From a virus: a stretch of DNA of 28,773 nt. Below the pieces are notes generated by a model. It searched no databases. It was not told where the DNA came from and was given only the letters and a program-made list of their open reading frames with translations. Made by a program: the position numbers and the translations under genes. Numbering within the stretch: the first letter of the stretch is position 1; the number at the start of each line of letters is the position of its first letter. This document shows, piece after piece, positions 10,514 through 14,494 of this stretch. The stretch spans positions 1 to 28,773 of IMG/VR virus record IMGVR_UViG_3300035670_001010, one strand, 5' to 3'.

Positions 10514-11260
10514 ATGTCATACATTGGTATAGTCGCACCATCATACGACCCAACAAGAGCACCAGTACCTCAGTTAGATGCTGAGCGTTTTAGTGGTGAC
10601 TCTGCAAATACTGCCTTTACACTTACACGAAAAGTTGTAAGCCCAACAGACATTGATGTAATTGTTGAAAATGTTCGTCAAGAACCAACAGTTGCATACA
10701 CAGTCGATGGTTACACTCTGACATTTTCAGAGGCACCACCAACAGGCACAAATAACATCTATGTAATCTATCGTGGTTCTGGTACATTCACTTATGCGTT
10801 TGTTCCAGATGGTTCGATTACATACGAAAAACTCGCACAAAACATTCGGCAATTTACAGTAGACCAATATACCGCAAATGGTTCTGGTCAGACATTTGTT
10901 CTTTCTGAGACACCTGCATCAGCAAATACACTGGTTGTTTCTGTTGATGGTGTTCTGCAAGTTGCACCAGAGAACTATTCAGTATCAGGTACGACACTTA
11001 CATTCACAGAGGCACCTGATGCATCTTCAAATGTTGTCGTTAAACATCTAGGATTTAGAACAACAGCTACAGTTACAGCTGTTCCTGCTGATTCCATTTC
11101 AGACATAGAACTTACAGATACGGCAGTCACACCAGGAACATATGGCGGTGAAGAACAAATACCAGTTATTGTAGTTAACCAACAAGGTCGTCTTACTTCT
11201 GCTGCAAATGTATCAGTATCAGCCCCATTACCAAATATCTTAATGTTATCAGGAATGTAA
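10514..11260 (+). CDS. Tail fibre protein with two tandem copies of a beta module
   Basis: The 248-residue protein contains an internal duplication. Residues 27-88 (FSGDSANTAFTLTRKVVSP ... YTLTFSEAPP ... NIYVIYRG) and 118-180 (YTANGSGQTFVLSETPASAN ... TLTFTEAPDASSNVVVKHLG) align along their length, each ending in a 'TLTFxEAP...N.Y/VV..G' strand pair. After them, TPGTYGGEEQIPVIVVNQQG (206-225) is a common phage fibre motif and is related to GADYGTASAVPAFRVEANGR in the fibre at 15207. It starts 4 bases after the preceding stop and has no strong Shine-Dalgarno sequence, so coupling is likely. Fibre identity is well supported; receptor and exact position on the virion are unknown. Confidence 0.78.
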   Translation: MSYIGIVAPSYDPTRAPVPQLDAERFSGDSANTAFTLTRKVVSPTDIDVIVENVRQEPTVAYTVDGYTLTFSEAPPTGTNNIYVIYRGSGTFTYAFVPDGSITYEKLAQNIRQFTVDQYTANGSGQTFVLSETPASANTLVVSVDGVLQVAPENYSVSGTTLTFTEAPDASSNVVVKHLGFRTTATVTAVPADSISDIELTDTAVTPGTYGGEEQIPVIVVNQQGRLTSAANVSVSAPLPNILMLSGM

Positions 11261-11266
11261 AAGAAA

Positions 11267-11605
11267 ATGGCTCAAACATATAAACGACTAGGCGCAATTG
11301 CTCCCTCAGCAAATACACAAACAAATGTGTATGTTGTTCCAGCGGCAACAGAAGTAGTTATGTCAACAATTACAATATGTAATCAGAATGCAAGTAATGC
11401 CCTTTACAGTTTGGCTGTAATGCCTGCGAGTGACTTTGCATCACCTGCTGGAACAAAAGACTTCATTGCAAGAGATGTTCTTGTACCTTCACTTGATACA
11501 ATCATTCTGACAATTGGTTTAACAGGAAATGCAGGCACAGTTTTTGCTGCAAATACAAATTTAGCAAATATTTCGTTTAGTATGTTTGGTTCAGAGATTA
11601 CCTAA
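11267..11605 (+). CDS. Small beta-rich virion-associated protein
   Basis: This 112-residue protein has the pattern NVYVVPAATEVVMSTITICN (20-39), then SLAVMPAS, a DTIILTIGLTGNAGTVFA stretch, and ends ISFSMFGSEIT. I recall this pattern (VYTVPAG...STI.VCNQ... ending FGSEI) from small proteins next to fibre genes in many marine and freshwater phages, where it is annotated as hypothetical or virion-associated. It shares overall organisation with the 10184 protein. A weak AAAAGAAA ribosome-binding region precedes the ATG, and its stop overlaps the ATG of the glycine-rich gene (TAATG). No enzymatic motif is visible. Confidence 0.75.
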   Translation: MAQTYKRLGAIAPSANTQTNVYVVPAATEVVMSTITICNQNASNALYSLAVMPASDFASPAGTKDFIARDVLVPSLDTIILTIGLTGNAGTVFAANTNLANISFSMFGSEIT

Positions 11606-13455
11606 TGAGTATAAAATCTGCTTCTGGTTTAATTATAGGTTCTGCTAGAGCTTCTGGATTTGCAGTAAGACCAATAGGGTTTGCATATCCTTCTGGCGGT
11701 GATCCAGGAAGGTTTCCAAGTATTTCTGTCGAACTCCTCGTCATCGCTGGTGGTGGTGCAGGTGGTTTTGGGCCAAACACAGGTGGTGGTGGAGGCGGTG
11801 GTGGTTATTTGGAAGGTAGCCTAACTGCTACCTTTGGAACTGCATACACAGTAACAGTTGGTGCTGGTGCGGCGGCAGACACAAGTGGTGCTGGAGGTGA
11901 CGGAAGCAACTCTGTGTTTGGAACTGCAACTGCTGTTGGTGGCGGCGGTGGGGGAGGAGGTGCTAATAGCCCTGGTCGTAGCGGTGGTTCTGGCGGTGGA
12001 GCGTCCTCTTACAATTCTCCAACCGCAACTGGAGGGCCATCAACCCAAAGTCCTTCTGGTGGTTTAACTGGTTATGGAAATGCGGGTGGGTCATCAACAG
12101 ACAATGGTGCTTATTACGGCTCTGGATCAGGTGGTGGTGCAGGGGCTGCTGGTGGTGCGGGTGGTGAAACCGCAACATCTCAGCCAGGAATAGCGGGTGG
12201 TGCTGGAAAACAAAGTTCAATTACAGGTATAAGCCCTTCACCTTATTATGCTGGTGGCGGTGGTTCGTGTGCTGAAGGTTCTCCAGGCGGTGCGGGTGGT
12301 GCGGGTGGCGGTGGAACGGGTATGAATAGCCCATCTGTTGCGGCAACCCCAGGAACTGCTTTAACTGGTGGAGGCGGTGGCGGTGCGGCTAATAATGATC
12401 CTGCACGCCCAGGCGGTGCTGGTGGTTCTGGTGTAGTTGTTATCAAAGTACCAGATACTGCGGCGGCAGTCTTCTCTGATGGTGTCGCCACACGCTCTTA
12501 CTCTGTATCTGGTTACAACATTTACGAAGTGCAAGCCACTTCTACTACAAGTGAGACAGTCACTTTTTATCCCGATGCCTTCTTAGCCGAGTACCTTGTT
12601 GTTGCAGGTGGTGGGAGTGGTGGTAGTGCAAGATATTTCAACGAAGGTGGAGGAGGCGGTGGTGCTGGTGGTTATTTAGCCTCTGCTGATGCGGTTGCTA
12701 TGGCGGTTGTTACTGGTCAGGCTTATCCCGTTATTGTGGGTGCTGGTGGTGCAGTAGTAAATTCAGCGGTTGGAAATGATGGTTCTAGTTCTCAGTTTGC
12801 ATCTATTATTGCTTCAGGAGGAGGCGGTGGGGGTTCTACGGGTGGGCCGTCATCAGAAAAAGCAGGGCGACCTGGAGGTTCTGGCGGTGGGGGCGGTGGT
12901 CAAGATACCGCAAATAATTTAGGTGGTTCTGGAAATACTCCTTATAGAAGCCCGTCACAAGGAAACAATGGAGGAAATAGTAATGGTTCAACCGCACCAA
13001 ATTACGGCTCTGCTGGTGGCGGTGGAGCAAATGCCGTTGGCGGGAATGGGTCAAATACAGCAGGAGGAACTGGAGGCGCAGGAAAATCAAACTCTATTTC
13101 TGGTTCCTCAACATATTATGCGGGGGGTGGAGGCGGTGCTTCATTAGGTGGTACTGTTGCTCCTGGCGGCACAGGGGGTGGTGGGGCAGGTAACAATGGT
13201 GGCCCTTCTCCTGCGGCTGGAATTCCTGGAACCGTAAATACTGGAGGCGGTGGCGGCGGTGCTGTTGCTACTTATCCAGCAGCAACAGTCAACAGCGGCG
13301 GTGGAGGTTCCGGCGTAGTCATCATCAAAATCCCAGACACCAAGACCGCAACATTCTCTGGTGGCGTAACGCAATCGTCTACTACTGGCGGCGGGTATAA
13401 GATTTACACAGTAACGGCTACTTCTACAACCAACGAAACGGTGACATTCTCTTGA
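11605..13455 (+). CDS. Duplicated glycine-rich adhesin-like tail fibre protein
   Basis: This 616-residue protein is dominated by glycine. It consists of two long tandem copies: about 42-321 (from VELLVIAGGGAGG to SGVVVIKVPDTAAAVF and ATSTTSETVTF) and about 328-615 (from AEYLVVAGGGSGG to SGVVIIKIPDTKTATF and ATSTTNETVTF). Each copy has runs of 6-8 glycines and SPG/GGP segments between two beta edges. The organisation matches glycine-rich domain proteins of phage tails and is reminiscent of the glycine-rich gp38 adhesins of T-even relatives, where polyglycine-II helices carry receptor-binding loops. Residues 1-41 lack the repeat and may attach the protein to the fibre. It would act at the fibre tip in host recognition. 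It overlaps the preceding gene (TAATG) and the next one (TTGA). Confidence 0.82.
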   Translation: MSIKSASGLIIGSARASGFAVRPIGFAYPSGGDPGRFPSISVELLVIAGGGAGGFGPNTGGGGGGGGYLEGSLTATFGTAYTVTVGAGAAADTSGAGGDGSNSVFGTATAVGGGGGGGGANSPGRSGGSGGGASSYNSPTATGGPSTQSPSGGLTGYGNAGGSSTDNGAYYGSGSGGGAGAAGGAGGETATSQPGIAGGAGKQSSITGISPSPYYAGGGGSCAEGSPGGAGGAGGGGTGMNSPSVAATPGTALTGGGGGGAANNDPARPGGAGGSGVVVIKVPDTAAAVFSDGVATRSYSVSGYNIYEVQATSTTSETVTFYPDAFLAEYLVVAGGGSGGSARYFNEGGGGGGAGGYLASADAVAMAVVTGQAYPVIVGAGGAVVNSAVGNDGSSSQFASIIASGGGGGGSTGGPSSEKAGRPGGSGGGGGGQDTANNLGGSGNTPYRSPSQGNNGGNSNGSTAPNYGSAGGGGANAVGGNGSNTAGGTGGAGKSNSISGSSTYYAGGGGGASLGGTVAPGGTGGGGAGNNGGPSPAAGIPGTVNTGGGGGGAVATYPAATVNSGGGGSGVVIIKIPDTKTATFSGGVTQSSTTGGGYKIYTVTATSTTNETVTFS

Positions 13456-14078
13456 AAACTGCTGAAGTAATTCCTATGCACTCGGCCCCAGAAGAACGGC
13501 AGACACCTAACCCTGCTTGGGCGTTTAATCTTGATCCTGTTCATTCTTGGGCGTACTGGGATAAAGCCTTCACCAAAGAAGAATGCGAGAGAATCATCGA
13601 GATCGGTAATGACCGCACACAGAAACAGGCACAAACCCGTGGCGGCAATATCGATAAAGTACGCAAGTCTGAGATTGCATGGCTCTACCCAAGTGACAAT
13701 CTTGACTGGGCTTACAGGCGCATGACTGACATCATCATGGACTTGAACAACAGGTTCTTTCAGTTCGACATCTTTGGTGCGACAGAGGGATTCCAATTCA
13801 CCAAATACACGGCACCTGGCGGCAAGTATGGTCGTCACATAGATTCTGCGCCTGGCACTCTTATTCGCAAACTATCTTTCACCGTTCAACTCTCTGAGCC
13901 TGAAGACTACAAGGGCGGTGACTTGTGTTTGTATCTAAGTGACAAAGCAGAAATAATGAAAAAAGAACAGGGCTTTGTAGCTTTGTTCCCATCATATGTG
14001 CTGCATGAGGTTAAGCCTGTTACGCAGGGAACAAGATATAGTTTAGTAAGCTGGATTACTGGTAAACCATTTAAGTAG
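13452..14078 (+). CDS. 2-oxoglutarate/Fe(II)-dependent dioxygenase, prolyl-4-hydroxylase-like
   Basis: This 208-residue protein has the double-stranded beta-helix dioxygenase signature. The iron ligands are H129 and D131 (GRHIDSA) and H185 (LHEVKPV), and R195 lies ten residues after H185 to bind 2-oxoglutarate (numbering from TTG). Length and the YTAPGGKYGRHID segment fit phage prolyl-4-hydroxylase-like enzymes, which couple 2-oxoglutarate decarboxylation to hydroxylation. The substrate is unknown; virion proteins, host proteins and DNA bases are all possible. I chose the TTG start because it overlaps the preceding stop (TTGA, 13452-13455); ATG at 13476, eight codons later, is the alternative and neither has a strong ribosome-binding site. 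Codon use is richer in G+C than the neighbours (30 of 60 bases at 13501-13560), which hints at recent acquisition. Confidence 0.88.
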   Translation: MKTAEVIPMHSAPEERQTPNPAWAFNLDPVHSWAYWDKAFTKEECERIIEIGNDRTQKQAQTRGGNIDKVRKSEIAWLYPSDNLDWAYRRMTDIIMDLNNRFFQFDIFGATEGFQFTKYTAPGGKYGRHIDSAPGTLIRKLSFTVQLSEPEDYKGGDLCLYLSDKAEIMKKEQGFVALFPSYVLHEVKPVTQGTRYSLVSWITGKPFK

Positions 14079-14089
14079 GAGATATATAA

Positions 14090-14494
14090 GTGGCTCATTT
14101 TGCAAGAATTAAAGATGGAATAGTTGATTTTGTAACTGTTGGTCGTGATGACGATGAGAATAGAGAAGACGAACTTGCGCATGATGGTTGGATCTATCGT
14201 AGGACTTCCTACAACACCCGTGGCGGTGTTCACTACGGTGCTGATGGTCAACCGTCTGCCGATCAGTCTAAAGCCTTCCGTAAGAACTACGCTGGTCTAG
14301 GCTATTCGTATGACGCAGGTAGAGATGCCTTTATTCCACCCAAACCTTTTAACTCATGGGTGCTGAATGAGACGACTTGCCTATGGGATGCGCCTGTTGC
14401 CATGCCAGAAGATGCGGGTACGGGTGAACCTCCTAAGAGATACACATGGAATGAAGAAACTACTTCTTGGGACTTAGTAGAAAATAACGAATAG
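14090..14494 (+). CDS. Small conserved phage protein with NTRGGVHY motif, unknown function
   Basis: This 134-residue protein starts at GTG, with ribosome-binding site AGGAGA (14077-14082) 7 bases upstream. It has the features of a protein common in marine and freshwater T4-like phages: N-terminal MAHFARIKDGIV, a central SYNTRGGVHYG, then FRKNYAGLGYSYDAGRDAFI with PPKPFNSW, and a C-terminal YTWNEETTSWD. It is rich in aromatic residues and lacks a signal peptide or catalytic motif. Versions of this gene are usually near fibre genes, so a small virion or fibre-associated role is likely, but function is not established. Like the dioxygenase before it, it is more G+C-rich than the core genes. It ends the first part of the accessory island, just before a terminator. 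Confidence 0.8.
   Translation: MAHFARIKDGIVDFVTVGRDDDENREDELAHDGWIYRRTSYNTRGGVHYGADGQPSADQSKAFRKNYAGLGYSYDAGRDAFIPPKPFNSWVLNETTCLWDAPVAMPEDAGTGEPPKRYTWNEETTSWDLVENNE

Follow-up and report, generated by a model that had tools for sequence, protein, structure and literature searches.

The stretch of DNA considered here, referred to below as the window, is IMG/VR virus record IMGVR_UViG_3300035670_001010 at its full length of 28,773 bases. The window virus is a virus of aquatic bacteria, and the window is a T4-like myovirus fragment with recognisable baseplate wedge, tail sheath stabiliser, large terminase, sheath and portal genes. Within its fibre region three genes follow one another on the plus strand, in the order glycine-rich (Gly-rich) gene, 2-oxoglutarate (2OG)-Fe(II) oxygenase, F1. 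The first (11605..13455, ATG start, stop TGA at 13453-13455) encodes an adhesin-like protein of 616 aa, the second (13452..14078, TTG start at 13452) a prolyl-hydroxylase-like enzyme of 208 aa, and the third (14090..14494; PHROG 7759, 2.1e-31) the 134-aa protein F1, a conserved partner of the Gly-rich gene. From sequence comparison and modelling, the oxygenase is probably a phage protein prolyl hydroxylase that acts on prolines in the Gly-rich domain of the adhesin and would thereby alter the chemistry of the receptor-binding tip.

The enzyme belongs to Pfam family 2OG-FeII_Oxy_3 (PF13640; E=2.3e-15, 57.8 bits versus a curated cut-off of 27) and matches PHROG 61 (E=2.7e-34). All of the ligands listed in the preliminary description of this DNA are present and are invariant in 36/36 aligned relatives, namely H129 and D131 of the HxD metal-binding motif (codons 13836..13844, plus strand), the further metal ligand H185 (14004..14006, plus strand) and R195 (14034..14036, plus strand), which we take to be the 2OG-binding arginine. 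Tyrosine at H-3 and tryptophan at R+6, each kept in 35/36 relatives, presumably correspond to residues that contact the substrate proline in prolyl hydroxylases. When PDB sequences were searched with a profile of the 36 relatives, PiuC-type hydroxylases came out on top (E 4e-15 to 2e-13; PiuC 2e-13), followed by the Pseudomonas putida prolyl hydroxylase (3e-7), P4HTM (6e-7) and a Bacillus prolyl 4-hydroxylase (P4H; 2e-6), and, lower down, by PBCV-1 P4H (1.4e-5), PHD2 (2e-5) and Chlamydomonas P4H (2e-4), with a Trichoplax match as well. Down to E 1e-3, nearly all matches beyond the PiuC type are protein prolyl hydroxylases.

The AF2 model of the enzyme (pLDDT 88.4) has the double-stranded beta-helix fold and returns 334 PDB matches at E<=0.001. 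In Foldseek, ranks 1 and 2 go to the P. putida EF-Tu prolyl hydroxylase. Values of VIA Z are 21.2 for the P. putida enzyme (176 residues, rmsd 3.0), 20.9 for PHD2, 19.1 for an algal P4H with (Ser-Pro)5, 19.0 for vCPH and 18.9 for PiuC. Both the profile and the predicted fold place the enzyme with protein prolyl hydroxylases as well as with PiuC, and a common fold does not demonstrate a common substrate. A recent cellular source was considered and rejected; the scan of bacteria and archaea gave eight loci, all distant, at 30-44% identity and mostly partial.

The proposed substrate matches Pfam Gly_rich_2 (PF21722; 2.1e-38, 133 bits versus a cut-off of 24.3) in two stretches and is assigned to PHROG 2295. 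The best-scoring Pfam stretch spans aa 41-281 (11725..12447, plus strand), and a second Gly-rich repeat is placed by alignments at about aa 322-616 (12568..13452, plus strand). The SPG/GGP-type segments pointed out earlier are there: the protein has 31 prolines, many in SPG, SPS, GPS or PGG contexts, and adhesin prolines are frequent in SPS, GPG, SPT, TPS, SPG and NPG contexts. At 5.4% proline, its Gly-rich region (557 aa) exceeds 94% of Gly-rich proteins without an oxygenase. A collagen-like substrate, as the preliminary description had imagined it, was rejected since the longest Gly-X-Y run is 5 and the shuffled mean is 5.0. The prolines lie slightly farther from GGG runs than other residues do (median 9 versus 8), a shift too small to assign them to loop tips. 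A tblastn search of the Gly-rich protein against the phage collection gave no match, most likely because of the low-complexity filter.

The reading frames of adhesin and enzyme share four bases, TTGA (13452..13455, plus strand), the enzyme TTG running into the adhesin stop just as had been noted. The TTG start is credible, for close relatives share the enzyme N-terminus, MxNTAEVIPM, and begin it with TTG or ATG at the equivalent position even if their two genes are not overlapping. A conserved translational coupling of the kind read into this overlap is not supported, the usual order among relatives being Gly-rich, F1, enzyme; the four shared bases are a local feature.

The association of the genes can be viewed from either side. 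Enzyme loci were collected in two IMG/VR scans (119 of 120 with an enzyme ORF) and counted as 77 clusters at 90% identity, with expectations taken from the other genes of the same loci. A Gly-rich gene at most one gene from the enzyme occurs in 13/77 clusters against 11.6 expected, and immediate adjacency was accordingly rejected as a signal. Within two genes the count is 42/77 (17.4 expected) and within three genes 51/77 (25.1 expected), which bears out the co-occurrence across phages that the preliminary description had proposed to look for. The signal lies at two to three genes because F1 usually sits between; the arrangement seen most often is Gly-rich, then F1, then the enzyme, and additional oxygenase families frequently come after it.

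The reverse view was taken from three F1-anchored scans that were blind to the enzyme. In the first of these samples a Gly-rich gene lies directly upstream of F1 in 50/70 loci. Oxygenases flank the F1-Gly pairs in 7/65, 47/64 and 37/41 cases in the three samples, and since these counts vary by sample the enzyme is best described as an optional addition to an adhesin-F1 core. The core unit is the Gly-rich gene with an F1 of ~130 aa, to which as many as five consecutive oxygenases may be added. An obligate enzyme-adhesin pair was rejected, as 58/65 pairs of the first sample have no oxygenase nearby. Few loci of the window's own F1 lineage have the enzyme nearby; in other lineages it is nearly always present, and runs such as Gly-Gly-F1-u183-OXa-OXb-OXd recur. 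The same arrangement is seen in the isolates S-SM1, S-RSM4, HTVC023P, HTVC033P, 023Pt_psg01 and HTVC008M, the last with five genes of oxygenase families on the opposite strand. Routine separation of the enzyme from Gly-rich fibres, named earlier as an observation that would count against action on the fibre, is not found in the window's clade but does occur in the distant PhiXhv-12, CRP-810 and AG-345-E15.

If adhesin prolines are hydroxylated by the enzyme, one expects a different proline content in adhesins that have an oxygenase partner. F1-Gly pairs were deduplicated at 95% (281 of 309), and 260 had a Gly-rich gene. Pairs were kept if two genes were seen downstream or an oxygenase was present, a rule that slightly favours positives, giving 247 pairs and 246 after a length filter. 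Proline makes up 4.37% of the Gly-rich region with an oxygenase (n=166) versus 2.47% without (n=80; p=1.6e-16). By number of oxygenases from none to four it is 2.5, 3.7, 3.8, 5.4 and 7.0%, and with five 6.0% (n=4). With GC as covariate, phylogenetic generalised least squares (PGLS) along the F1 tree puts the difference at +1.31 points of proline (t=5.96, p=8.9e-9), and over the 20 residues proline alone survives Bonferroni correction. In path-disjoint with/without pairs, for which negatives also needed three downstream genes (71/80 kept), there is more proline with the enzyme in 23/29 (Wilcoxon p=4.1e-4), and no other residue falls below 0.05. The effect holds in the F1-anchored samples alone (t=3.08, p=0.0025) and where a locus has no more than one oxygenase (t=5.24). 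It comes mainly from the window enzyme's own family (t=5.1), the other families giving 1.8, 2.4 and 0.8.

The enrichment is also confined in space. The rest of the same proteins, beyond the Gly-rich region, shows no proline effect (t=-1.0, n=146), proline is not raised in the other locus proteins (3.48% with oxygenase vs 3.75% without), and F1 itself has less proline where oxygenases are present (4.9 vs 6.2%). Taken sample by sample, the values with and without oxygenase are 3.98 vs 2.16% in the first F1-anchored sample (7 and 58 pairs, p=0.05) and 3.48 vs 2.38% in the second (47 and 17, p=6e-4). The third shows no difference (6.67 vs 7.34%; 36 and 4, p=0.64), and three of its four negatives are contigs that stop right behind the u167/u183 gene.

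Complete phage genomes with F1 were sorted into carriers and non-carriers by whole-genome searches for two oxygenase families. For the isolates 22/35 records were taken in, the other 13 being duplicate accessions or near relatives by name. From 25 phage loci, Melnitz-3, CRP-810, PhiXhv-12 and AG-345-E15 were left out of the comparison, and Bellamy, with its oxygenases ~9 kb from F1, was counted as a carrier. In the resulting 21 complete genomes the Gly-rich proteins contain 6.0% proline in 12 carriers versus 1.7% in 9 non-carriers (p=9.5e-4), and 11/12 carriers exceed every non-carrier. Serine also differs (0.014), being lower in carriers. Among five phages of the single host strain HTCC1062, proline is 9.3, 6.5 and 3.8% with an oxygenase and 1.2 and 1.7% without. 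In Melnitz-3, whose oxygenase is ~28 kb away, mean proline is 1.9% and that of the F1-linked adhesin 1.4%. The PF13640 genome search of the window's own record gave no candidates, though hmmscan of the translated gene gives the 57.8 bits quoted above; absence calls in the genomes may therefore hold misses. Missed oxygenases would blur, not create, the contrast between carriers and non-carriers. Host or GC bias was rejected as the cause of the proline difference, because GC is lower in the set with oxygenases (0.370 vs 0.442), the other locus proteins are unenriched and isolates of the same host differ.

The suggestion that the enzyme acts on proline in the fibre thus receives indirect support from the recurrent gene association, the predicted fold and the proline-specific enrichment; what has fallen away is the collagen-like manner and a conserved coupling. 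In the proposed mechanism, adhesin and hydroxylase would be made together from neighbouring genes on the same strand, and the enzyme, using Fe(II), 2OG and O2, would hydroxylate prolines in those adhesin loops that separate the glycine runs, while the virion is being assembled or earlier. Hydroxyproline could stiffen these loops, add hydrogen-bond donors or serve as a handle for glycosylation, and binding or stability may change as a result.

Several observations weigh against an adhesin-directed prolyl hydroxylase. The correlation could come from an unmeasured lifestyle factor, and the closest sequence relatives with structures are of the PiuC type. In 26/77 clusters the three genes on either side of the enzyme include no Gly-rich gene. 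Of the Gly-rich/F1 pairs nearest the window's own F1, 58/65 are without an oxygenase close by, and any modification would therefore be dispensable. The exception among the carriers is ctNMl277, which has a PF13759-type oxygenase beside its Gly-rich/F1 pair, yet only 1.4% proline in the adhesin. Six of the 29 phylogenetic pairs go the opposite way, and 6/80 negatives have at least 4% proline; three of these six come from contigs that stop shortly beyond the u167/u183 gene, and a fourth carries a similarly long gene at that position.

The main rival is that the gene is cargo, i.e. a mobile accessory or auxiliary metabolic gene, for instance for PiuC-like iron handling or modulation of 2OG levels, lodged in the hypervariable fibre region but without action on the fibre itself. 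A gain of this kind had been allowed for in the preliminary description on grounds of base composition, and the composition is indeed distinct: G+C at third codon positions is 0.474 in the enzyme gene, against 0.266 in the Gly-rich gene, 0.356 in F1 and 0.197-0.361 in ten other window genes. The optional presence of the oxygenase, its PiuC-type best PDB sequence matches and the occurrence of unrelated genes downstream of F1 (methyltransferase, lysozyme, amidase) all fit cargo, as does the literature, where such genes are treated as metabolic, through 2OG levels and DNA repair (PMC3037559) or PiuC iron uptake (PMC13184970). However, cargo does not predict extra proline confined to the Gly-rich part of a neighbour, across independent pairs and isolates, and the enzyme is without the C-terminal extension of the PiuC-type chain 3dkq. 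We regard cargo as unlikely, roughly a one-in-several prospect.

Less probable still is an action of the oxygenase on a different virion or assembly protein from the module, such as F1 or a second fibre protein, or on Lys, Asn or some further residue in place of proline. No constant partner stands closer to the Gly-rich gene than F1, and the arginine at H+10 is also found in PiuC; however, the lower proline of F1 beside oxygenases speaks against F1 as target, and Lys, Asn and Asp of the Gly-rich region are unchanged in the phylogenetic regression. Modification of a host protein in the infected cell (for example EF-Tu or a ribosomal one), to which the EF-Tu-bound P. putida hydroxylase lends itself as top structural match, would leave both the position beside the adhesin in a structural module and the adhesin proline enrichment unexplained, and is very improbable.

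Further genes lie around the three described above and around their relatives. In the window, a tail-fibre-like protein is encoded upstream (10514..11260, plus strand; PHROG 18673 tail fiber, 7.7e-18), and a small protein at 14616-14948 matches PHROG 3304 (L-shaped tail fiber assembly, 9.2e-22), with an LtfC-like Pfam match below cut-off. Elsewhere, Gly-rich + F1 modules are tandemly duplicated two or three times before the oxygenase run (loci L201, L230, L237 and L215). A glycosyltransferase-resembling gene (PHROG 1574) often stands beside an oxygenase (L033:2072-2824, L034:4734-5486, L036, L092, L097); glycosyltransferase-like by reading, it could decorate hydroxylated residues. A gene of ~167-190 aa recurs between F1 and the oxygenases (L288:5112-5660, L318:5560-6063); one copy weakly matches the 2OG oxygenase PHROG 81 (2.9e-4), another matches nothing, and the gene may be a degenerate oxygenase. 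Genes annotated as 'ferrochelatase' or 'DNA endonuclease V' also occur within oxygenase runs (L318:7313-7933, L333:5985-6626, L316:7344-7832). Because these names have no Pfam family backing at E<=0.1 and the window oxygenase itself matches PHROG 3531 ('ferrochelatase', 8.8e-14) and PHROG 2297 ('DNA endonuclease', 1.4e-8), the products may be misannotated oxygenase-like proteins.

In cyanophages and pelagiphages, few accessory genes are as frequent as those for 2OG-Fe(II) oxygenases, with 24 in one genome (PMC9602691). The roles proposed for them in the literature include 2OG modulation and DNA repair (PMC3037559), host reprogramming (PMC9602691), partnership with ferrochelatase (PMC9599517) and PiuC-type iron uptake (PMC13184970), and there is a speculation on phage P4H and collagen in tail fibres (PMC9301287). 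A link of phage oxygenases to Gly-rich adhesins, or a proline signature, was not found in the literature searched, which lay mostly outside subscription journals and was accessible in part. Prolyl hydroxylation of the adhesin would very likely be a known enzyme chemistry with a new viral substrate. The proline-specific signature in a neighbouring virion protein offers a concrete candidate substrate for phage 2OG oxygenases. Were it true, phage tail tips would carry hydroxyproline as a modification linked to host recognition, and viral ecology would have to revise how many genes it counts as metabolic. A broader generalisation is offered tentatively: many aquatic phages might carry an adhesin-modification cassette of Gly-rich adhesin, F1, one to five different 2OG oxygenases and at times a glycosyltransferase-like gene, whose enzymes would hydroxylate residues of the receptor-binding tip and perhaps decorate them afterwards. 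This would be a post-translational diversification of host recognition, and a large share of the 'metabolic' phage 2OG oxygenases would then be virion-modifying.

Among known systems, P. putida PPHD (PDB 4iw3, 4j25) is the best whole-fold match to the window enzyme, and 4iw3 shares with it the ligands, the tyrosine at H-3 and the tryptophan at R+6. Unlike the window enzyme, PPHD is cellular, acts on EF-Tu and is without a link to a phage fibre; identity is 22-24%. The PBCV-1 vCPH (5c5t) is a virus-encoded prolyl 4-hydroxylase of the same fold, but from a virus of a eukaryotic alga, and we know of no tail-adhesin pairing for it. The PiuC or PKHD-type enzymes (3dkq, 9ghl, 9qn0-4) are nearest by sequence and have the same ligand spacing, but their chains carry phenylalanine at H-3, where the window family has tyrosine. 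The 3dkq chain is also longer at the C-terminus, the match stopping at 194/243 there and at 203/208 in the window enzyme. This extension of ~45 residues after the core, presumably the domain named PKHD_C, is absent from the window enzyme, which has no such Pfam match at E<=0.1. The window enzyme and PiuC-type hydroxylases may also differ in role, the latter being tied to iron uptake in the literature (PMC13184970).

For the adhesin, the nearest parallels are Pam3 gp24 and S16 gp38, in which a Gly-rich domain sits on a phage fibre and a variable loop tip is thought to bind the receptor (PMC9608196). The PDB profile search with the window Gly-rich family gave no sequence match to either chain, and no hydroxylase is described for these tips in the accessible part of that paper. 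Cryo-EM of Pam3 resolves its Gly-rich domains into a conserved stem and a variable receptor-binding tip, with chaperone-assisted folding (PMC9608196), and by analogy the Gly-rich protein of the window may fold in the same way. Pam3 also has a helper protein, the chaperone gp25, and this combination of Gly-rich tip and helper may resemble the window pair (PMC9608196).

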